From Pomphorhynchus laevis (lineage: Eukaryota > Acanthocephala > Palaeacanthocephala > Echinorhynchida > Pomphorhynchidae), in the NCBI GenBank assembly GCA_012934845.2, contig WNNJ02002946.1:1-64000 (forward strand): 64,000 nt of DNA. The letters run 5' to 3'. Each line of letters begins with the position of its first letter. Position 1 is the stretch's first letter. This document shows positions 1 through 46,108 of this stretch, piece after piece. The notes below the pieces were generated by a model. That model was not told where the DNA came from. It worked only from the letters and a program-made list of their open reading frames with translations, and searched no databases. The position numbers were made by a program, and so were the translations under genes.

Positions 1-172
1 AATACACATATATCATCAATGTATCGAAACATATATTTCATATATTTATATAATTTAGATTTATTTTTTAAACATTTATGAAAAATTCATATTCTATAAA
101 GCTTAAAAATACGTAAGCAATAATTGGGATACTATTACCACCCATTGGATCCGGTTCAAGGTAACCTGGCCA
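1..172. repeat. AT-rich repeat upstream of PLE fragment
   Basis: No gene seen. Bases 78-150 (attcatattctataaagctt ... ctattaccacccattgga) are closely matched at about 25060-25130, where the copy lies beside a hairpin and the unknown repeat-gene family. It may be an internal or terminal part of a PLE or of that repeat. Confidence 0.5.
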
Positions 173-385
173 ATGGATAGCAGTATCAGTTTCTTAGATG
201 TTAAGATTAGCCTGAATAATTTCACTACTTCTTTATTTCGGAAACCTACAGAAACCAACTTGTATATTCCTTGGAGTAGTAATCACTCTGCCAACACAAA
301 ATTGGGTGTATTTAGAAGCTTTTATATTAGAGCTTATAATCTTTGTAGTACTCCTAATTTGGTTTATGACAAGTTGTCTTTTTGA
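130..385 (+). pseudogene. Penelope-like element, RT C-terminal fragment (left half)
   Basis: The open frame 173-385 carries the post-palm region of a Penelope-like RT: ISFLDVKI, then FRKPTETNLYIPWSSNHS and RAYNLCSTPNLVYDKLSF. The ISFLDV...RKPT...Y..W.S.HS pattern is typical of PLE RTs. The frame stops being PLE at about 384 and resumes at about 5000 (LFIAFLRLGYPLKDLK), so 4.6 kb was inserted into this PLE. Upstream RT motifs are outside the window or lost. Confidence 0.8.
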
Positions 386-393
386 ATAATCAT

Positions 394-1585
394 CGAAGCA
401 GTATAATCTTGATTTGAGTATTGTAAATTTTGAAATACTGTTGTTGCATAAGCTGTTTGTCTATTGCTTGGTGATCGAATAGAATCCACATCAGATGAAG
501 TAGGTTGACTATTCATTTGATTATCGACTAGACCGCTTATATTTGAAAATATCAACTGTGAATATACTTGTGGGGATGTGTCCCTAAGACGAATTAGGTT
601 CTGTAGAATTTGTACAATCGTCCTCAATGCTCGAGTATTTGTGCATAGAGCACGAATTTCAGGTATTAGCCACTGACTTATAAACTCATTAATTACACGA
701 TGTACTTGTTCTCTTTGTCTTTCGTCCTGTATAAATTCATATGTACGCAGCAGATTAAGAAGAATCTTAAGCAGATTAAGTAGAATACCAGGATCGCAAA
801 GAGAATTATTCATATTTGGGTTAAAACTGGATGCCCGCAACATGTCGAATAACATGAGAGGATTTTCAGCATCGACTACTAATAATTGTTGAGGGTTCAT
901 CGTAGAATACCGATTAGTGTTTTCGCTTGACGTAGATTGCAAAGGCGACTCTAAACGGTTTGAATTAGATACATATGATCTAGACGAATCGATTTGAAAT
1001 GTAGTATTCTGAGATGCCCCCGGGTTTGGCAGGAGGTTTGTATTTTCAGTTCCTACTTGACTAGTGTTAGCTGTACTAGATTAGCTAGAATTAGTATTCA
1101 GAGGGTTATCGCCAAACTGATCTTGTGCCACATTAAGCATTGGTTCTTGAAAATCGCGATAAATTCTCTGTCGAACATTATATCCGCTCGGTAAACTCTC
1201 AAGGTTAATCAAGGCTCTATCATGGTTTCTCGTAATTTCTTGTATAGTTGTAGGATTACGAATAATTTCCATTGTTTGACGCAAATATCTGGATTATTAA
1301 CGAATTTTGAAACCTCGTGGTTCTGCTCCCTCACTCTTTGCATTTGTGGATTGTTAAGCTTAATTAAACTAAGCAATGCAGGATTACTCATAAGTCTTTG
1401 AGCCAAATTATTACTTAGAAAGTTTTGAGTTGCATGTGGATTAGTCTGAATAGTGCCAAAAATATTTTGTTGTATTTCAGTACAATTTGAATTTCCAAAT
1501 GGAAGGTTCAAAAATGGTGCAAGTGTTAATCTGGATAATGTTGCAGTTCCATAGGTATGTTGATCAATATTCGGTTGAAGCGATA
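394..1585 (-). pseudogene. Ubiquilin retro-copy fused 3' of RT (copy 1)
   Basis: The minus-strand frames spell a ubiquilin central and C-terminal region: a STI1-like helix set ([32 protein letters not shown]), then after a frameshift [52 protein letters not shown] and LLPNPG. A second STI1-like part follows (NPQQLLVVDAENP, LLRTYEFIQDE). Ubiquilins are shuttle factors that bind ubiquitinated clients and the proteasome. The N-terminal UBL domain is absent and the UBA domain is cut off at about 394. No introns are visible. A stop (NTNSS*) and the frameshift at about 1275 make it non-functional. It starts directly after the RT element's C-terminus with no spacer. Confidence 0.85.
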
Positions 1586-4500
1586 TCAACCCTCCTTAAT
1601 TGTTGGTGATTGCTGAAGTGACAAAGAAGCATTATTTGATTGTTTAGATGTTGAGTGATATGCCGAAGGTCGTCGTGGAGACATGAGTTGCAGGACAGGC
1701 ATGTCAACCTCAGAATGGTCGCCTTTGACGACGGAAGCTGACCGAATATTGGAGTCATGAACTATCTCAACTGACTGGGCCTCGGGCTGTGCAAGGTTGC
1801 TCAAAGAAAAGAGTCGCGGAGATGGGTCGTCACAAAATCCAAGACTTTTCTCTAGTAAGGGTTGGCCCATCTCGTCAAGACTTTTGAGGATCGCTTTAGC
1901 ATTTCCTCTCATCAGTGCGACGGACACGCGCTGAAATAACTGACCCGCTGTGCTGCAATACGGTGTACCGTTTCTACATGACATAGAACGAGCAATGAAA
2001 CGAATTAGCTTTTCCCCTTGGGGTTCCATCCTCCGTAAGTTTCAACAACTGCTGCCGTAAAACTGTATCCATTCTCCTCTAATTTGCGTTTATATTTCCT
2101 TTCCTTGACACAGGTGGCATACTTGCTTGCGGCATAGCCAGGGATCTCAGAAGCCATGGAAATATAAGCATTTTGTTGAGGGTTAGTTACGGCAAAATCA
2201 ACTGCTAAAGGAGGGTCCTTATAAAATAGAATGTCCGCCGGTCTCTCTCGCAAACCACGAACAAGGTTGGGTACCTCATTTGCCACCCTCAATCCAGCAG
2301 AAACCGCTGCTTGAAAGACTGTATCCCTCAAGCTATCATGTCGAATTCCAGGGTGGCCTCCAAACTGACATGTTAAGGCGTGGAAGCCGAATTTGTCTGC
2401 CATCCTAAGGCAGCGTCTGCATCGATAATCACTGTTCCAGAGAGACAACCCTAACCAAAGATGTAGTAGCACAACGAATTCATTTACTGCCAAGTTCATA
2501 TGTGTGGCTTTGCTAGGGACGGCCTGTAACCAAGCACACGCGTGTGGGCATGAAACTGCCAATAATCGGGCAGTATTGAAGCGATCGGCATTCTCCAATA
2601 GCCTGCGGCGCGACACTTCGTCAATGTGACAAGATAATCCTCGTTGATTTGTTTGCGGATTTCCTACATGTTGCGGAATAATAGATTTAACGAATTCGTA
2701 CCCAGGGAAAGTTAAAGGGTCAAGATTTAATTGGCTAGCGACAGTGTCTACACTGGACACGAAGGCTGCCTGAGAGTGTTGGAAGTAGCTTCGAAGGCCC
2801 AGTCCTCCCATCTTCAGCGGTAAGCGAGCTTGCATCCACGCCCACTTATCGGGTTGAATAGAAGTGATATTGCTAAAACACTTCAATATCAAGCGGTCGA
2901 ACAAACGGAAATACTCTTCGGCGAAGGCGGGGTCTATAGTGCGCATTAAATGGTCTACCCGTGGAGCGGATGCGCAGCTACGAAGCAGGATGAAAGCAAC
3001 TTGTGGGTCAGGGAGATTTTCGAGCGAGTCCAGAGTTTGACGCAGGGATGGTAGAACAACATCGACAAGGTATCCCGAACAATGTTCCTTAGACTTGATG
3101 GGACTTCCAAGAATTGTAAAGTTTTTTGTGGTGTTGACCAATGTGATCCATGGGCATCTGTTCTTTATCAAGTCGACCTTGTCTGCCCTACCAATTACTT
3201 CGGTTTTTCAGTTAATAGACAGTCCAATCGCAGGAAAATTAGCAGCAAGACGAGCCAGAGCCTCGCCCATCGCAACAGGAGTACCGCCGATTATTCCGTC
3301 GTCGAGGTACTATCTTTTTAAGCTGATACTTTCAATCTCCGATATCTAGACCACAATCGGATCAATCGCCAGGCAAAATAGAACTGGACCAAGAGGATCT
3401 CCTTGTTGTACCCCTCTTCGAGACTGAAGAGGTTTCAGGCTACCGAACCAAAGGCTCGAGGTAGTGCCGTAGCACCATGATGTCCATCGACTAATTTCTG
3501 GAAAATTCTTACTGATCGCGTCGACGAAGGAATTCCGGTTCAGCGTATTAAAAGCGTTAGCCAAGTCGATTTTAGCCCAAACCCAATTAACATCTTGATC
3601 ATGAAATTGTTGTAGACGACGTGCTTGATGTACTATCTGTTCCATTCCGTTTGATGTCGCTACACCGAGTTGGTGCGGATGGAGGGATTCGGCAAATCGC
3701 TGTCGAAGTTTGGAGCAAATACACTTAGCGCAAAGACGACGTAATGTCTCACCAATTGCAATGGGTGAGACATGCTATGTTCTACCCTCAAACCCAAATA
3801 GCCAGGAAAGGAAGAGGATGGAAATGATGAGACTGCGGCCTCAACTATGTCTGAGTCAACCGACAAGCGGGTATTCAAAGATGGCTGTCCAGGACTTTGG
3901 AGAACATCATTTAAGGGGTGTAGCTCTGTCAGTTTACTGCGCAAAGATTCTGAAAATTCGCATGCACTATTCGACGTAAGGCGGCGCATCGCCTTTCCGA
4001 AATTGCCATTTCTCGCCAATTCGATGACTTCCATAAATTCATTTTTCTTATCATTAGTTCCTCTGAATTTCCTGGATGATCGAAACCCCAAAGAGGAAAG
4101 GCAATCACGCTCTCTTCCATTTTCGAATTTGTTTATAAGCGCGTTAATATTAGATCTAGTGTTGTCTCCGGCATGATGCCGACCTGAGGAAGTCTGTAGG
4201 CATAGCTTCGGAAAGCACAGCAAACGCTCCCAATCGTTGGATGAATTTGAGCACAATGCCTCTAGAATTAAAGAGGAAAAAACATTGGCAACTCGGCGGC
4301 GAAGATTCCAAGGAATGTGCTTGATCGTGTTAACTGGTTCCATCCAAACCCTATGAAGAAGCTCGAAGGATCTCTTTTGATTTTCGCAGCAGGAACTGTC
4401 TATCTTTTCAAACTGAAACGATGTCTTCGAGGTGTTCTCGTTAGCTTCTAAAAACTCAGGTATTGTGTCAGTTGATGCGATAACGTTGTGAGAGCTGGCT

Positions 4501-4622
4501 GTCGGTAGATGTCCTGATCCTGAGCAGCGCAAGTTCACAGGTCCGTGTACCCGAAGATGACCTGATGCGTTAAGGCGAAACGATCCGCCACAGACTGCGC
4601 AACTAGCCGTATTCGCTTGCAT
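1586..4622 (-). pseudogene. YLDDG-family RT with CCHC and PD-(D/E)XK-like domain (copy 1)
   Basis: Read from ATG 4622. It opens with a Cys-rich finger (CAVCGGSFRLNASGHLRVHG ... LRCSGSG), then a pre-RT region. RT motifs follow at 3645-3290: KIDLANAFNTLNRNSF, GVQQGDPLGPVLFCLAID and *YLDDGIIGGTP, where the residue before YLDD is a stop. The C-terminal part at 3171-2005 has CRRCLRMADKFGFHALTC and RHDSLRD (CCHC type), RPADILFYKDPPLAVDFAV and ASKYATC, then ETYGGW. This resembles the restriction-like endonuclease end of R2-type non-LTR elements. After a frameshift at about 2020 the frame ends with QRVSVALMRGNAKAI. About 150 bp of the RT N-terminus seems deleted relative to the copy at 38.2 kb. The class assignment is by motif only. 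Confidence 0.8.
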
Positions 4623-4997
4623 GTTATCCCAAGCTCGGTTTTGTATTAATTAATTGTAAGCCGTTGGTTCGTAGCTGATTCGTAGTTGATTCGTGATTAT
4701 TATTATTGTTGATTGCAAGTTTTGATTGTAAGTAGTTATTAATTAGCAGCCGCGTCCACGATTGAAACGTTGTAATCAGTGTAATTGTATGTTTATTAGA
4801 AACCAAAATTTTTTGTAATTGGCAAAGCGGTGCTGTTCAAGAATCCACAAGTCTTATTAACAATTGGTTGTCTATATATCCAAACCACCAATTGTAGTTT
4901 GCAATAATTGTATTGTATTTACTTTAGATCTCAAATGTAATTTGCTAGAACAGTTATAAATTTTGTTCGTTTTGTTTATTGAAAGAAAAACAATAAT
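4623..4997 (-). other. 5' leader of the chimeric retroelement
   Basis: No ORF of note. Read on the minus strand, the stretch just before the ATG (taatacaaaaccgagcttgg, with several 'acgaaccaac/ctacgaatca' short repeats) matches the leader before the ATG at 38221. The homology fades further upstream. Confidence 0.6.
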
Positions 4998-5590
4998 AGT
5001 TGTCTTTTTTGTTTATTGCTTTTCTAAGATTGGGATATCCACTTAAAGACTTAAAGCGTATTGGCGAAATGATTGAGTCTCGTTTTTATCAACCCAGTGA
5101 TAAATTGATTGGTCCCCAAAAATTAAAATTGCAATGTACAATTCCCTCGTTTGATTGGTTGTCACGCTCGTTAACATTACAACTGAGGAAATTGATAAGA
5201 ATATCACACCTTCCAATTGACTTAACCATTAACGAAGGGAAACAAATAACAATTGACAATTTGATAAGTAGGTGTAAACGCGTTATTAAGAAAGTATTGG
5301 TTTATAGAATTGATTATTGCGATTGTGTGGAATTTTATGTAGGTCAAACCGGTCGAATGTTAAAGACAAGAATAAAAGAACATCGCGCTGCTCTGCATAC
5401 AGTGGCTCACTCTGCTGTTGATAAACATTCTCTTTTGACCGGACACGAAATTAACTTTGATGAAGTCCTTGATCATCGACAACAAGCCTTCTAACGACAG
5501 ATTCTTGAATCACTGTTCATCCGCGATCTCAAGCCGAAGTTAAATGAGAAGGATGGATATCATTTCATGTTGGGAAGTATTACATAGCAA
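4998..5590 (+). pseudogene. Penelope-like element, GIY-YIG end (right half)
   Basis: Continues the PLE at 130-385: LGYPLKDLKRI is the expected region after YDKLSF. About 280 nt further on is a GIY-YIG endonuclease domain, YRIDYCDCVEFYVGQTGRML, then TRIKEHRAAL. A stop at 5492 separates it from the usual C-terminus (ILESLFIRDLKPKLNEKDGY, ending near 5585). GIY-YIG nucleases make the target nick for PLE insertion. Further downstream (5670-5720) lies agatgatgccagctaggcat plus cgaaatattc, a PLE-like 3' motif. Confidence 0.88.
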
Positions 5591-37985: not shown

Positions 37986-38220
37986 ACACACAATAAATAA
38001 CATACATAATCGTTGGAACGACTACTAAGAATCAGTCACTACTTACATTCATTGGATATGAAACAATGTGAAAAGAAGGTCAACAAGTAACTACTTACAA
38101 GTAACTTCTTACAATAAAAACACAAACAACTACGAACCAACTTACACTACGAACCGACTACGAATCAGGCACGAACCAACTACTTTCAATTAATAAATAC
38201 AAAACCGAGCTTGGGATAAC

Positions 38221-40930
38221 ATGCAAGCGAATACGGGTAGTTGTGCGGTCTGTGGCGGATCGTTTTGCCTTAATGCATCAGGTCATCTTCGGGTACATGG
38301 ACCTGTAAACTTGCGCTGCTAAGGGTCAGGACAGACACCGACAGCCAGCTCTCACAACGTAATCGTATCAACTGACACAAGACCTGAGTTTTTAGACACT
38401 AATGAGAACACCTCGAAGACATCGTTTCAGTTTGAAAAGATAGACAGTTCTTGCTGCGAAAATCAAAACAGATCTTTCGAGCTTCTTCATAGGGTTTGGA
38501 TGGAACCAGTAACACGATCAAGCGCATTCCTTGGAATCTTCGCCGCCGAGTTACTAATGTTTTTTCTTCTTTAATTCTTGAGGCATTGTTCTCAAATTAA
38601 TCCCACGATTGGGAGCGTTTGCTGTGCCTCCCGAAGCTATGCCTACAGACTTCCTCAAGTCGGAACCATGCCGGAGACAACATTAGATATAATATTAACG
38701 CGCTTATAGACAAATTCAAAAGTGGAAGAGAACGTGATTGCCTTTCCTCTTCGGAGTTTCGATCATCCAGGAAATTCAGAGGAGCTCATGATAAGAAAAA
38801 TGAATTTATGGAAGTCATCGAATTGGCAAGAAATGGCAATTTCGGAAAGGCGATGCACCGCCTTACGTCGAATTATACATGCGAATTTTCAGAATCTTTG
38901 CACGGAAGACTGACAGAGCTACACCCCTTACATGATGTTCTCCAAAGTCCTGGACAACTATCTTTGAGTACCCTCTTGTCGGTTGACTCGGACATTGTTG
39001 AGGCCGCAGTCTCATCATTTCCATCCTCTTCCTTTCCTGGCTATTTAGGTTAGTGGGAAGAATTTATTTGAGATATGCTGTCGGTAGATCATGGGGTTTT
39101 GCTTCAACGCCTAAGGTCACTAGTTAACAACATGATCGCTGGTACTCTTCCGAACGACCTCGTTTCATTTGTCGCCGGTTCTAATCTCATGCCATAATAC
39201 AAACAAGATGGAGGGATCCACTCCATTGCCATTGGGAAGACATTACGTCGTCTTCGCGCTAAGTGCATTTTCTCCAAACATCGACAGCGATTTGCCGAAT
39301 CCTTCCTTCCGCACCAGCTCGGTGTAGCGACGCCACACCGAGCTGGTGCGGAAGGAACCCACGGAATGGAACAGATGGTACATCAAGCACGTCGGCTACA
39401 ACAACTTCATGATCAAGATGTCGATTGGGTTTGGGCTAAAATAGATCTGGCTAACGCTTTTAATACGCTGAACCGGAATTCCTTCGTCAACGCAATCAGT
39501 AGGAATATTCCAGAAATTAGTCGATGGACATCATGGTGCTTCGGCACTACCTCGAGTCTTCGGTTCGGTAGCCTGAAACCTCTTCAGTCTCGAAGAGGGG
39601 TACAACAAGGAGATCATCTTGGTCCAGTTCTGTTTTGCCTGGCGATTGATCTGATTGTGGTCCAGATATCGGAGATTGAAGGTATCAGCTTAAATAGATG
39701 GTACCTCGACGACGGAATAATCGGCGGTACTCCTGTTGCGATGGGCGAGGCTCTGGCTCGTCTTGCTGCTAATTTTCCTGCGATTAGACTGTCTATTAAC
39801 TGGAAAAATCCGAAGTAATTGGTAGGGCTGACAAGGTCGACTTGATAAAGAACAGATGCCCATGGATCACATTGGTCAATACCACAAAATACTTTACAAT
39901 TCTTGGAAGTCCCATCAGGTCTAAGGAACATTGTTCGGGATACCTTGTCGATGTTGTACTACCATCCCTGCGTAAAATCTCCCTGACCCACTGGTTGCAT
40001 TCATCGTGCTTCGTAACTGCGCATCCACTCCACGAGTTAACCATTTAATGCGCACTATAGACCTTACCTTCGCCGAAGAGCTTTTCCGTTTGTTCGACCG
40101 CTTGATATTGAAGTGTTTTAGCAATATCACTTCTATTCAACCCGATAAGTGGGCGTGGATGCAAGCTTGCTTACCGCTGAAGATGAGAAGACTGGGCCTT
40201 AGAAGCTGCTTTCAACACTCTCAGGCAGCCTTCATGTCCAGTGTATACACTGTCGCTAGCCAATTAAACCTTGACCCTATAACTTTCCCTGGGTACGAAT
40301 TCGTTAAATCTATTATTCCGCAACATGTAGGAAATCCGCAAACAAATCAACGAGGATTATCTTGTCACATTGACGAAGTGTCGCGCCGCAGACTATTAGA
40401 GAATGTCGAGCGCTTCAATACAGCCCGATTTTTGGCAGTTTTATGCCCACACGCGTGTGCTTGGTTACAAGCCGTCCATAGCAAAGCCACACATATGAAC
40501 TTGACACCAAATGAATTTGTTGTGCTTCTACGTCTATGGTTAGGGATGTCTCTCTGCAAAAGTGATTATCGATGCAGACGCTGCCTTAGGATGGCAGACA
40601 AATTCGGCTTCCACGCCCTAACATGTCAGTTTGGAAGCTACCCTAGAATTCGACATGATAGCTTGAGGGATACAGTCTTTCAAGCAGCAGTTTCTGTTGG
40701 ATTGAGGGTGGCAAAAGAAGGTAACAACCTAGTTCGTGGTTTGCGAGAGAGACAAGCGGACATTCTATTTTATAAAGACCCTCCTTTAGCAGTTGATTTT
40801 GCTGTAACTTACCCACAACAAAATGCTGATGTTTCCACGGCTTCTGAGATCCCTGGCTATGCCTCAAGCAAGTATGCCACCTGTGTCAAGGAAAAAAATA
40901 AACGCAAATTAGAGGAGAATGGATACAGTT
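38221..40930 (+). pseudogene. YLDDG-family RT element (copy 2)
   Basis: Starts MQANTGSCAVCGGSFCLNAS after the same leader as copy 1. RT at 39366-39818: KIDLANAFNTLNRNSFVNAI, GVQQGDHLGPVLFCLAIDLI (His for Pro after GD) and NRWYLDDGIIGGTPVAMGEA. C-terminus at 40006-40930: CRRCLRMADKFGFHALTC, RHDSLRDTVFQAAVS, ERQADILFYKDPPLAVDFAV and ASKYATCVKEKNKRK. It diverges from copy 1 at ENGYS, where about 35 bp (ctgaaataactgaccctctg...) is the inverted form of copy 1 sequence. Stops at about 38310, 38600, 39050 and 39195 and a 21-bp palindrome at 39305 disrupt it. Ubiquilin follows at once. Confidence 0.85.
39305..39355. other. 21-bp perfect inverted repeat inside RT copy 2
   Basis: ccttccgcaccagctcggtgt (39305-39325), loop agcgacgcc, then its exact complement (39335-39355). 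Copy 1 of the element (about 3660-3690) has this sequence only once, so the second arm is a local inverted duplication. Confidence 0.85.
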
Positions 40931-40959
40931 CTGAAATAACTGACCCTCTGTGCTGCAAT

Positions 40960-42427
40960 ACGGAACCCCGTATTGATCAACATACTGTATATTGATCAAC
41001 ATACTGATGCGGTATATACAGTATATTGATCAACATACTGATGGAACTGCAACATTATCCAGATTACCACTTGCATCATTTTCGAGCCTTTTATTTGGAA
41101 ATTCAAATTTTAATGAAATTGAACAAAATATTTTTGGCACTATTCAAACTGATCCACATGCAATTCAAAACCTTCTAAGTAATCATATGGCTCAAGGACT
41201 TATGAGTAATCCTGCATTGCTTAGTTCAATTAAGCTTAACAATCCACAAATGCAAAGAGTGAGGGAGCAGAACCACGAGGTTTCAAAATTCGTTAATAAT
41301 CCAGATATTTGCGTCAAACAATGGAAATTATTCGTAATCCTACAACTATACAGGAAATTACGAGAAACCATGATAGAGCCATTATTAATCTTGAGAGTTA
41401 ACAGAGCGGATATAATGTTCGACAGAGAATTTATCGTGATTTTCAAGAACCAATGCTTAATGTGGCACATTAGCAGTTTGGCGATAACCCTCTGAATACT
41501 AATTCTAGCTCATATAGTACAGCTAACAGTAGTCAAGTAGGAAATGAAAATACAAACCCCCTGCCTAACCCGGGGGCATCTCAGAATACTACATTTCAAA
41601 ATAATCGATCTGCATCCATTTTAAATCATTTGCCATTTAATTTAGTGGATTCGTCTAGATCATATGTATCTAATACAAACCGTTTAGAGTCGTCTTTGCA
41701 ATCTACATCAAGCGAAAACACTAATCGGTATTCTACGATGCACCCTCAACAATTGTTAGTAGGCGCTGCTGAAAATCCTCGCATGTTAATCGACATGTTG
41801 CGGGAATCCAGTTTTAACCCAAACATGGACAATTCTATCCGCGATCCTGATATTCTACTTAATCTGCTTCGTACATATGAATTTATACAAGACGAAATAC
41901 AAAGAGGACAAGTACATCGTGTAATTCATGAGTTTATAAGTCAGTGGCCAATACCTGAAATTCGTGCTCTATACACAAATCCTCAAGCATTGAGGACGAT
42001 TGTGCAAATTCTACAAAACCTAATTCGTCTTAGGAACACATCCCCACAAGTATATTCACAGTTGATATCTTCAAATATAAGCGGTTTAGTCGATAATCAA
42101 ATGAATAGTCAACCTACTTCATCTAATGTGGATTCTATTCAATCACTAAGCAATAGACAAACAGCTTATGCAACAACGGCATTTCAAAATTTACAATACT
42201 CAAATCAAGATTATACTGCTTCGCTGTTTCAACCATTAGATCGTCTTAATCCCCAGCAACATCAGCCGACAAATCAACAACCAAAACAAACTCAAGAACA
42301 ACTTTATGCATTCGAACTTGTACAAATGCAAACAGTGGGATTCCATAGCCGTGATACTAATCTTGAAGCGCTTGTTGCATCTATGGGGGACGCAAATATG
42401 GCTGTAGAACGTATTGAAGACTCTTGA
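40960..42427 (+). pseudogene. Ubiquilin retro-copy fused 3' of RT (copy 2), with UBA
   Basis: Follows the RT tail through a short tandem of attgatcaacatactg (three copies, 40970-41042). Content: [51 protein letters not shown] then a frameshift (same place as copy 1), [20 protein letters not shown], a stop in NLES*QSGYN, and PLPNPGAS. The open frame 41630-42427 carries the second STI1-like part and ends with a UBA domain: YAFELVQMQTVGFHSRDTNL, EALVASMGDANMAVERIEDS. No UBL domain and no introns. Here UBA is kept, so this copy reaches further 3' than copy 1. Not functional as a full ubiquilin. Confidence 0.88.
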
Positions 42428-42845: not shown

Positions 42846-44820
42846 ATGGAGTCATCGTCGAGGGGGAATCATATTGACAATTGTGCCGTATGCCATGGGC
42901 AATTTAAAATAAATAACACAGGCCGTATTCGTAAACACGGGTCAGTTTTAATGAGGTGCTCGGGTTCTGGAAAATACCGTCTACATCTAATCATCCACCC
43001 GTCGATACCGCTCGAGGGTCGGTTCACGTAAATCACGCTGATTACGAAGTTCAATTAGAGCATGTTAATCACCAATCTGGTTTTTCAGCTGAAGAACTCA
43101 TGGTCACTCCGGGTATTGATTTGAATGCTGCATCACTCGAACTCCTACGGAAAGTCTGGATGGCTCTAATTAACACTGTGAAGCGCATTCCATGAAATTT
43201 GCGTCGTCGAGAATCAGAGTTATTCTTATCCCTTATCCGTAAAGCCATATGTTCGCAGTCGATACATGATTAGGTCCGTATCCTCTGTTTCCCAAAACTG
43301 TGCTTGAAAACTATGGCAGCTCACGGTCAATCTGAGGATAATGTTCGATCGCGGATGACCAAATGTATGGGGTGGTTTGAAGGTGGTAAGGAAAGTGAAT
43401 GTATGTCAACCTTGAATAATCGTCCTTCCCCAACAGCCAGGAGATCTTCTTCTAAGCTCTACATCGCAGAAGCCATCGATCTGACAATAAGCGGTAACTT
43501 TGGAAAAGCCATAAGTCGCTTAACTTCTAGCGGCATCTGTGAATCGTCATACTCTACTCGAGAGAAGCTCGTGTTGCTACACCCGTCGTCCGACTAGGCC
43601 CGTTTTTCGCCATTATCAATATTGTCACTACCTTTGTTGTTTGATTCTGATACCGTTCAAGCAGCAATATCGTAATTTTCTCCTTCCACTTCTCCCGGAT
43701 CTTTTGGGTTACGAGCAGCGCATCTACAGGATATGCTGGCGGTCGACCACGAATCTCTTCTTTACCGCACATCAACGTTGGTCAATCACATGATTGCAGG
43801 GTTACTACCACATGATCTCGTACGCTTCGTCTCTGGGGCTAAATCACCGTCACCGACAAGATGATGACCTTATATGGATCAAAATCGACTTAACAAATGC
43901 ATTTAATTCTCTGACTCGAAAATACATTATTGACGCTATAAGAAGGTTTTTCCCAGAACTTTCCGAATGGGTAAATTATTGTTATGGCAGTGGATCGAGT
44001 TTACGATTTGGAAATTTGGAACCCCTTTCATACTTAAGCGGTGTTCAGCAAGGAGAACCTTTGGGCCCGTTCCTATTTTGCCTTGCGATAAACCCAATCA
44101 TTGCCCACATTTCAATAATGGATTGCATTATTTTCAACAAATGGTATCTCGACGATGGAGTTGTGGACGGTACAAGTAAGGCTATGACAGAGAACTTGAC
44201 ACACTTATCGTCACATTTTAATGCCATTGGAACGAATATAAACTGGAAGAAGACAGAGGTAATAGGCGAGGCCGGTCATATCGAAACAATCTGAGGATCG
44301 TGCCATTTCATCCGTAGCTTAAAGCTGTCCAAAGACTTTAGTATCCTATGTATCCCGGTTGGCTCAAGGGAATACTGCGCTAATTACTTGATCACCGCAT
44401 TACTTCCACCTTTGATACGGGATCTAGGAATCTTAAAATCTCTGCCGGTCCCTCAGGTTGCATTCACCTTATTTCTTTATTGCGCATCCGCACCAAGGGT
44501 AAACCATTTGATGCGCACCGTCGATCCTGATTTCGCGGATGAATTTTTTCTGCCTTTCGATCGTTAGATCAGAGCGACTTTTGCCAGAATAACTTTCATC
44601 ACCCCCGACAAGCAGACGTGGATCAAGCATGATCGCCTCCGAAAATAGGAAGTCTGGGATTACGCAGCTGCCACATGCATTCCCCTTCAGCATTCATATC
44701 GAGCATACACTTGGTCTCCAATCGGCTAAATTTGGATCCACATATTTTTCCAGGATATGGATCAACAAAAGAAAAGACCTTGTCACTTTTCTAACGCGAA
44801 TTAGATAGTTTTCCTTACAG
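42846..44820 (+). pseudogene. YLDDG-family RT element (copy 3, diverged)
   Basis: ATG at 42846: DNCAVCHGQFKINNTGRIRK and RCSGSGKY match the N-terminal finger of copies 1 and 2 at lower similarity. RT at 43870-44294: WIKIDLTNAFNSLTRKYIID, GVQQGEPLGPFLFCLAINPI, NKWYLDDGVVDGTSKAMTEN and INWKKTEV. C-terminal region readings near 44400-44560 include CASAPRVNHLMRTVDPDFAD. A different subfamily of the same lineage. The tail is lost where an Hsp90 copy begins. Confidence 0.82.
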
Positions 44821-44919
44821 TTTCAAATTGCACAGTTAATCAGTCTCATTATCACCACGTTCTTCTCGAACGAGGAAATCTTTCTGCGTGAACTCATTTC
44901 AAATAGATCTGATGTCCTA

Positions 44920-45640
44920 GAAAAATAAGGTACGAACCCCTGACCGACCGTACCAAACTCGACTCCTGCAAGGAGCTCGACATCCATATCATTCCCGTGG
45001 AGAACAACAAGCAGCTGCGCATCATCGACACCAACAGTGACATGACGAAGGGCGACATGGTGAATAATTTGGGCACGATTGCTCGCAGTTGGACGCGGGC
45101 CATTATAGAGGCCCTACAGAGCGGAGCCGACAAAGGCATGATTGGACAGTTTGGAGTATGCTTCTACTCGGCATATTTGATCGCGGACAGGGTCCGGTCG
45201 TGTCCAAGCATAATTATGACGAGCCGTACATCTGGGAGTCGAGTGCGGGCAGAAACTTCACGGTACGTCATGACACTACGAGTGAACGCTTAGGCAGCGG
45301 GACAAAGATAACACTCTGGCCAAAGAAGGACCAGTTGAAGAAGTACCTTGAAGAGAGCGAGATCAAGGACACTGTGTAGAAGCACTCCCAGTCCATCCAG
45401 TATCCTATTATCTTGGTCATTTAGAGAGGGAGATGTCTGATGACGAGGCTGAGCCCGATGAGGCCGAGAACAAGGAGGAAGACAAGGTGAACGTGGATGA
45501 ACAAGCCAAGAAAGATGACGAAGAGAAATCCGAGAATTATAACGTAAAAGACAAAGATTCCTTAGCAATTTTAAGCTACAATACTATGATGCCGGAACGA
45601 CTTCCAGTTGTAGATGTTAAAGTTTGAGATATCGGTGCTA
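44920..45640 (+). pseudogene. Hsp90 (Hsp83-type) retropseudogene fragment
   Basis: Intron-less frames of the Hsp90 N-terminal domain: [60 protein letters not shown] and [19 protein letters not shown], then after a frameshift near 45190 [20 protein letters not shown] and [20 protein letters not shown], a stop, and the charged linker MSDDEAEPDEAENKEEDKVN. Key ATP-site residues are damaged (DTGIGM reads DTNSDM; GFGxGF-type GQFGVGF reads GQFGVCF). It covers roughly the first third of Hsp90 only. Probably a decayed processed copy. Confidence 0.88.
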
Positions 45641-45699
45641 ATAAAAATTATGTAATTACCATCGGATTTGCTTGTTTTTCATACTAATGAATTAATATT

Positions 45700-46108
45700 G
45701 TATTATTGTGACCAATACACATCTGCATCCGCAAGAAAACAAATTAAGGTTTATAATAAAGAAAGAAGTTTAATCAGAAAAAATAGTAAAATTGAGAATA
45801 TACTATAAGAGCCTGAAACTTAGCCACATAATATTGAAAAATTGTACGATTCAAAGACCCTTGCACAACACTGTACACCAATTCACATATCCAGAAGCTG
45901 AATGTAAATTCAGTTCTAACAACATTTATATTAGTTACACGACGCAACGGTTGTATTCACGATTGACGCAACATTTATAAGGATTCGTATAAATAACTAA
46001 CCACCATATAATTTCTTTAATTTATTATCATATTTCATTATTTTATGGAAAGTGTGTTCATTATTATACGGGAAGCAATATTCATCAAAGAAATGAATCC
46101 TACTATCA
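45700..46108 (+). pseudogene. Penelope-like element, GIY-YIG end
   Basis: Readings HNTVHQFTYPEAECKFSSNN, IYISYTTQRLYSRLTQHL (GIY-YIG core, here Y-I-S-Y-T) and, after a stop, REAIFIKEMNPTI. The frame is cut at actatcaa by the L2 at 46110-50437 and resumes at 50438 with TINRKNKGFVKTLKYF. Confidence 0.75.

Follow-up and report, generated by a model that had tools for sequence, protein, structure and literature searches.

The window analysed here, 64,000 nucleotides of the acanthocephalan Pomphorhynchus laevis (contig WNNJ02002946.1 of assembly GCA_012934845.2, positions 1 to 64,000, forward strand), holds two broken copies of a retrotransposon in which a reverse transcriptase (RT) is followed by part of a ubiquilin. 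We consider it very probable that a host ubiquilin was captured and amplified as part of the retrotransposon; this confidence applies to capture and amplification, and any benefit to the element is weighed separately below. The history suggested by the copies is that the single open reading frame (ORF) of a non-long terminal repeat (non-LTR) retrotransposon with a restriction-like endonuclease (RLE) was lengthened at its C-terminus by a host ubiquilin lacking the ubiquitin-like (UBL) domain, and that the unit of RT, nuclease, linker and ubiquilin would then, judging from the pattern of copies, have been amplified by target-primed reverse transcription.

The RT-ubiquilin unit recurs across the genome

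The first-pass annotation, made from the letters of the window, had proposed capture of ubiquilin at the 3' end followed by retrotransposition of the whole chimera, and had suggested that the junction be sought elsewhere in the assembly. Using window positions 1000-2200 as a probe of the 249-Mb P. laevis assembly, we found the RT-ubiquilin junction spanned by 40 of 40 scored matches (the best 40 of 282 candidates, the window itself among the 40), at 94-100% identity and on many contigs. The 20 copies ranked directly after the window were taken with their flanks (L009-L028) and compared with one of them, L017; as this reference was chosen for being intact, its open frame adds no independent evidence. 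Across the main aligned pieces, identity of the 20 copies to L017 is 99.66-100%, and we regard the family as recently active.

The two ends of the copies behave differently. At the 5' side, eight copies reach the 5' region, ten begin at other varied points, and two are unscorable (L026 is cut by a contig end and L015 has an inverted piece). At the 3' side, 16 of the 20 have exactly the same 13-nt end following the stop codon of the ubiquilin; L011 and L026 stop no more than 8 nt from it, L012 stops earlier, and the contig of L015 breaks off too soon. Candidate target-site duplications, flanking repeats of 11-17 nt, are present in 6 of 19 tested copies, and the first of the window copies (W1) has a duplication of 12 nt. 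Duplication, 5' truncation and a common 3' end are all found, and in combination they make up the pattern usual for target-primed reverse transcription. Counting against this, the other 13 tested copies have flanking repeats of only 6-9 nt, a length expected by chance in AT-rich sequence such as this, partly because the tested point lies downstream of the true start in most of the copies that reach the 5' region. The same junction, the shared 3' end and the varied 5' starts elsewhere in the genome support the proposal of capture and retrotransposition as a unit.

L009 and L010 have common flanks and may be a single insertion. Upstream of the common start, the 5' leaders of L014, L016, L018, L019, L021, L022 and L024 share short pieces in differing arrangements, as if built by repeated jumps. 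The published P. laevis draft is summarised as about 260 Mb, of which repeats make up about 63%, long interspersed nuclear elements (LINEs) being the largest repeat class (PMC7310846), and the word ubiquilin is absent from the main text of that paper.

One reading frame from zinc finger to ubiquilin

Three of the 20 copies (L016, L017 and L021) have an intact frame of 1537 uninterrupted codons, or 1527 aa from the ATG, which encodes first a zinc finger, then the RT, the nuclease and a linker, and last the ubiquilin without its UBL. In L017, Pfam places RVT_1 at aa 327-555 (1.6e-18) and UBQLN1 (PF23195), the STI1-type central domain of ubiquilins, at aa 1115-1183 (1.3e-17) of the same ORF, and the best structure matches of the RT part are R2 (9nl2, 1.2e-08). 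The nuclease part has no Pfam match in the L017 ORF, nor in the corresponding part of L041, a copy from a related family described below; the motifs C-x2-C-x9-H-x3-C and RPAD-x(n)-D were found by eye in L017 and are conserved in the aligned relative P0033. We take these CCHC and RPAD motifs to mark a putative RLE. The ubiquilin part is unbroken over the covered length in 18 of the 20 copies, with breaks in L018 and L022. In five of the 20 (L014, L018, L020, L022 and L028) one common RT frameshift is apparent, probably in an A-run; an error of assembly could explain it, as could a defective subfamily that was mobilised.

When the ubiquilin end was searched against 5.8 billion proteins, covering lengths of 0.55-1.75 times 1527 aa, no second RT-ubiquilin fusion was found, and the sole protein returned was the P. 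laevis gene model P0001, which has a short ubiquilin piece.

The ubiquilin comes from the host lineage

Over the aligned part, the captured segment is 74% identical to the P. laevis ubiquilin model P0002 (in BLASTP, 61% over 65%), whereas its identity to five other ubiquilins is 30-33%. We therefore place its source in the host lineage, and a ubiquilin from outside the host is ruled out by the same comparison. Homology to P0002 starts at about residue 128 of that model, past the UBL, so the segment lacks the N-terminal UBL of a ubiquilin. The C-terminus of P0002 is odd and shortened, and for this reason the ubiquitin-associated (UBA) end cannot be compared with it.

Gene models of P. laevis account for 13 of 31 protein matches, with identities reaching 99%. 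P0001, P0003-P0009, P0011, P0016, P0020, P0025 and P0029 are P. laevis models with a UBQLN1 domain, short parts of which match the element at 74-99% identity; these are probably pieces of the element within annotated genes. In P0001 the ubiquilin piece is joined to a HECT-domain gene.

The two copies in the window

W1 occupies 384..4997 on the minus strand and is broken and 3'-truncated. It interrupts a Penelope-like element (PLE) on the plus strand, whose left half lies at 107..371 and whose right half, with an end that is GIY-YIG-like by eye, lies at 5010..5494, both halves being recognised from their ORF and from uninterrupted copies elsewhere. An exact 12-bp repeat, AGTTGTCTTTTT on the plus strand, borders the insertion at 372..383 and 4998..5009 as the target-site duplication. 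When the two sides of the site were rejoined as a 201-nt query, 19 of 34 genome rows spanned it end to end (1-200 or 1-201), 17 of the 19 at an identity of at least 90%. The earlier description of W1 as lying between the two halves of one PLE with a 12-bp direct repeat at its borders is thus borne out by both the repeat and the uninterrupted sites.

Within W1, all on the minus strand, an N-terminal part with a zinc-finger-like CxxC..H..H motif (by eye) lies at 3777..4622, with its ATG at 4622 (tblastn with L017 aa 1-282); RVT_1, its frames broken, lies at 3105..3789 (projected from L017 aa 327-555); and the CCHC and restriction-like nuclease motif RPAD..D, by eye, lies at 2040..2445 (projected from L017 aa ~775-910). 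The linker between nuclease and ubiquilin at 1592..1873 and the captured ubiquilin segment at 370..1592, which is without a UBL and has its UBA missing, were placed by tblastn against L017. The frames run in the order RT and nuclease (4622 to 2011) and then ubiquilin (1592 to 370). Pfam finds UBQLN1 in window 1209-1595 (5.1e-11) and gives 0 matches in the linker region, window 1586-2041. The first-pass annotation had the ubiquilin follow the RT without a spacer; the order stands, but about 100 aa separate the two, given that in L017 the conserved nuclease ends at aa ~967 and ubiquilin homology starts at aa ~1061-1066.

The second copy, W2, lies at about 38163..42427 on the plus strand, where a further RT-ubiquilin pair in the same order had been noted at 38.2-42.4 kb. 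Its ubiquilin (41025..42421, plus strand) includes the UBA region at about 42290-42415, the UBA likeness having been scored on L017, and reaches the stop codon, so that its 3' end is fuller than that of W1. The claim that an STI1/UBA module had been captured holds for a UBL-less ubiquilin segment; the UBA is lacking in the 3'-truncated W1, and W2 has the UBA region. W1 is about 97.4% identical to the young copies and W2, which is older, about 90-93% (main pieces). Because these identities differ and the upstream sides, which are the sides compared, share just one stretch of 54 nt at 85%, the two copies are not one recent inverted duplication with shared flanks, which was the outcome named beforehand as contradicting the retrotransposition reading. 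Both window copies are broken, as had been said, yet the family is not dead, three of the 20 fetched copies being intact.

Sister families carry other host proteins

Downstream of W2, at 42882..44770 on the plus strand, tblastn finds a third RT piece, from a sister family whose cargo is Hsp90; its nuclease is missing here and present in other copies. The captured N-terminal domain of Hsp90 follows at 44825..45700 on the same strand (the end approximate, by eye). A probe for this family gave 41 rows, comprising 32 of the Hsp90 part, 8 of the RT part and the window (best 40 of 185 candidates). Ten contigs have both nuclease and Hsp90, in constant order and strand, with a gap between them of 678-686 bp at eight (C307, C170, C453, C2333, C1883, C2437, C509 and C2622), 343 bp at C2589 and 5 bp at C1916. 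In L041 the nuclease is followed by one stop and then by linker and Hsp90 in the same frame. Its Hsp90 piece matches HSP90AA1 at 2.6e-65 and has the sequence of the N-terminal ATPase domain; the Pfam match to HATPase_c on L041 is below its cut-off.

With the nuclease as probe, two more groups of genomic places came to light, about 66-72% identical to it. One has as its cargo the C-terminal part of protein disulfide isomerase (PDI; PDI 2.6e-53, Thioredoxin 1.3e-17), including the thioredoxin a' domain with its CxxC, retained as CGIC in L049; the nuclease end runs into the PDI part in 11 of 48 rows (itself included), some of the genome places being near-identical pairs that may be duplicate contigs. 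The other (L048 and L050; C2653 and C1866) has a 57-residue match to NOA1, at 1.4e-4 in L050 and 0.49 in L048, and no Pfam or NCBIfam GTPase match in these pieces; here the nuclease end runs into the NOA1-like part in 15 of 45 rows (itself included). Frames are broken in the PDI and NOA1-like copies that we read.

A protein search with the RT-nuclease found 181 proteins, and the best 120 of these were examined for tails. The nearest database relative, P0033, is a 1538-aa ORF, 42% identical over 981 columns, whose in-frame end is the AAA part of the proteasome subunit Rpt3 (332 bits). The tail beyond the nuclease end is at most 62 aa in 109 of the 120 relatives and at least 200 aa in five; these lengths come from one automatic alignment, in which 10 of the 120 rows have a tail of 0 and are perhaps truncated or misaligned. 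Two distant relatives have long tails of other kinds: that of P0136 is a USP deubiquitinase domain, and that of P0143, 400 aa long, has no known domain. In a FastTree phylogeny of the nuclease part (at most 45 relatives, the L048 and L049 parts being short), the four P. laevis families group together at 0.992 and P0033 joins them at 0.999.

Each of the five clade members sampled (P0033 and the four families from P. laevis) thus has a long tail, no two of them alike, and separate acquisition of the tails is the simplest reading. Repeated in-frame capture of host genes is well supported, the NOA1-like tail being host-derived cargo on weaker evidence than the ubiquilin, Hsp90, PDI and Rpt3 tails. 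The captured module had been put forward as a possible new kind of cargo; that it was captured stands, but it is not unique, given that the sister families and P0033 carry other host proteins. The host tails are mostly from protein quality control (five of the six named, in a post hoc count that includes the distant USP relative and not the NOA1-like tail). A purely proteostasis cargo set was dropped because the tail of the fourth family is NOA1-like.

How the capture may have happened

A likely route would be template jumping or 3' transduction, by which an element whose 3' end is short and permissive would gain sequence from host transcripts. R2 RT jumps between templates in vitro, and the authors of that work suggest that this is maybe not physiologically necessary (PMC8857657); template switching by LINEs is described as a source of chimeric retrogenes, with 14-bp direct repeats in one case (PMC2104539). 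In our copies, a tail beginning TAGTTTTAA follows in 14 of the 16 that have the exact 13-nt end, and the full 22-nt tail is present in six (L009, L010, L016, L019, L021 and L025). The same 22 nt also form part of a PLE frame in sequence flanking L017 (L017 7143-7164), which suggests that a source copy picked up flanking sequence by 3' transduction. Less favourably, the PLE origin of the tail depends on this one flank, and the 22-mer is absent from the 64-kb window. The 22-mer also occurs in L030.

The ubiquilin, PDI and Rpt3 tails begin within the donor and reach its C-terminus or nearly so, which is what one would expect had copying begun with the donor mRNA. The tail from Hsp90 is an N-domain, and this does not fit simple copying from the 3' end of the donor without later loss.

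Does the ubiquilin tail help the element?

The benefit that we think most likely for the ubiquilin family is stabilisation of the element protein: a UBA at the C-terminus, or any folded tail, would stabilise the protein against the proteasome, there being no UBL to deliver it there. A C-terminal UBA shields Rad23, Dsk2 and Ddi1 from the proteasome and fusion to a UBA raised editing by Cas9, as reported in PMC7253670, and in human cells UBQLN2 restrains the gag-pol of PEG10, which is retrotransposon-derived and domesticated (PMC10076021). From this protection and this restraint together we infer that a UBL-less ubiquilin tail could stabilise the element protein, and our belief in such stabilisation is tentative, well short of even. 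Slightly more doubtful is the wider reading that the clade has repeatedly taken up host genes for protein folding and degradation at the C-terminus of its enzyme (UBL-less ubiquilin as shield or decoy, Hsp90 N-domain, PDI, and Rpt3 in a relative) and keeps them to protect or fold that enzyme.

Several results weigh against a benefit. The last 40 aa of L017 are weakly like solved UBAs (best 0.0056, Ubiquilin-1 0.021), Pfam finds no UBA in the L017 ORF, and the AlphaFold model of the W2 ubiquilin piece is poor, with a mean pLDDT (predicted local distance difference test) of 45; the model has three C-terminal helices with block means of 51-69. The ratio of nonsynonymous to synonymous substitution rates (dN/dS) in the ubiquilin part is 0.98 (L017-W1), 0.73 (L017-W2) and 0.89 (W1-W2), compared with 0.59, 0.44 and 0.50 in the RT-RLE part. 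It had been proposed to see whether the ubiquilin part stays in frame and under purifying selection; it is in frame in the three intact ORFs, and its dN/dS of 0.73-0.98 speaks against a benefit. Nor are changes concentrated away from conserved sites: 14 of 63 columns that are invariant among seven ubiquilins and kept in the host are changed, as are 27 of 93 middle and 35 of 119 variable columns (p=0.38), and for changes in L017 only the counts are 5 of 65, 6 of 49 and 10 of 83 (p=0.43). In the sister families, the conserved glycine of DTGIGMT, which we take to be an Hsp90 nucleotide-site residue, is lost in all three copies read (L041, L043 and the window), and the P-loop lysine, which we take to be characteristic of GTPases, is absent in both NOA1-like copies read. 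The PDI copy keeps its CxxC.

On the other side stands the open frame. The ubiquilin part differs from the host model at 71 of 264 codons, and the neutral expectation is of 0.7-6.75 frame breaks, with none in the intact lineage; the probability of none is 0.48 to 0.001, depending on how the changes are shared out. The break rate was taken from W1 and W2 only (24 breaks per 442 substitutions, or 5 per 145 for the ubiquilin part alone), L015, with 73 apparent substitutions, being excluded. Both this expectation and the conserved-site tests are weak tests, and we regard the open frame as arguing weakly for use of the ubiquilin part.

That the RT and ubiquilin are chance neighbours, or a single segmental duplication without a mobile unit, is an explanation to which we give practically no credence: it is ruled out by the junction in every scored match on many contigs, the varied 5' starts and flanks of the 20 copies, and the uninterrupted PLE sites elsewhere. 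The explanation that competes with benefit is that the ubiquilin piece was caught by chance and is translated as a harmless tail, its frame open only through the youth of the active copies, or through RNA decay brought on by the long 3' untranslated end that an early stop would create. This is compatible with capture, and we would call it an even matter. It accounts for the failure to keep conserved residues preferentially, for the dN/dS of the ubiquilin part, and for the loss of the P-loop lysine and the Hsp90 glycine; it sits less easily with long tails in all five sampled clade members against the short ends of 109 of the 120 relatives, and with a ubiquilin part unbroken in 18 of 20 copies despite so many codon differences from the host.

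A further possibility, which we judge improbable, is that the ubiquilin without its UBL is a decoy working in trans with a dominant-negative effect, binding ubiquitylated clients, the element protein among them, and blocking host delivery to the proteasome. The UBL is exactly the part that is missing, and the control of PEG10 gag-pol by UBQLN2 offers a precedent for a ubiquilin acting on a retroelement protein (PMC10076021), yet residue-level constraint is not seen on the client-binding part (p=0.38), and Hsp90, PDI and NOA1-like cargos in the sister families are a misfit for a conflict specific to ubiquilin.

Relation to known systems and what the captures mean

The P. laevis elements resemble the RLE-type non-LTR elements of the CRE, R2, R4, NeSL and HERO clades, as these are described in PMC4640811, in their single ORF, N-terminal zinc-finger-like motif, RT, and CCHC and nuclease motifs (by eye), and also in target-site duplication, 5' truncation and the best match of the RT part to R2 structures. 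They differ in a YLDD active site, the RPAD motif and an appended C-terminal host protein. What bears on their place among these clades is the similarity to R2 structures, our tree being one of the P. laevis families and relatives from the protein search. NeSL and Utopia elements with a Ulp1-like protease are, on the account in PMC4640811, a further case of an RLE element that gained a domain from the ubiquitin and SUMO world, but their protease is N-terminal, whereas the P. laevis tails are C-terminal, host-derived and family-specific. Gains of RNase H (PMC4640811) and of an esterase ORF1 (PMC3905857) by non-LTR elements are likewise described as acquisitions of cellular enzyme domains; in P. 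laevis, unlike those, each family has its own host tail, C-terminal past the nuclease.

The chimeric retrogenes made by LINE template switching, in the description of PMC2104539, are similarly fusions of unrelated transcripts by reverse transcription, but they join non-coding RNA, short interspersed nuclear element and LINE, whereas the P. laevis chimera itself amplifies and codes for one fused protein. The Cas9-UBA reported in PMC7253670 is likewise a nucleic-acid enzyme with a C-terminal UBA; that fusion is engineered, whereas the P. laevis one is natural, its UBA weakly recognisable and its stabilisation putative. In the titles and abstract openings listed by searches of open-licence papers we found no report of fusions of ubiquilin, Hsp90, a chaperone or a deubiquitinase to retrotransposons. 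Domain gain by retrotransposons is known; here it appears to be repeated, in one clade, in one animal genome and at one defined place.

For annotators there is a warning, given that several UBQLN1-containing gene models of P. laevis resemble pieces of the RT-ubiquilin element. For the biology of these elements, which appear to have acquired host genes at their tail end more than once, the capture of ubiquilin sits in a young family, and capture becomes datable and open to tests: each family offers a junction and copies of different ages, and one can look for a donor gene. Should the tails help the element, they would parallel in nature the enzymes stabilised by a UBA, and would be evidence of a limit set on retrotransposition by protein turnover.

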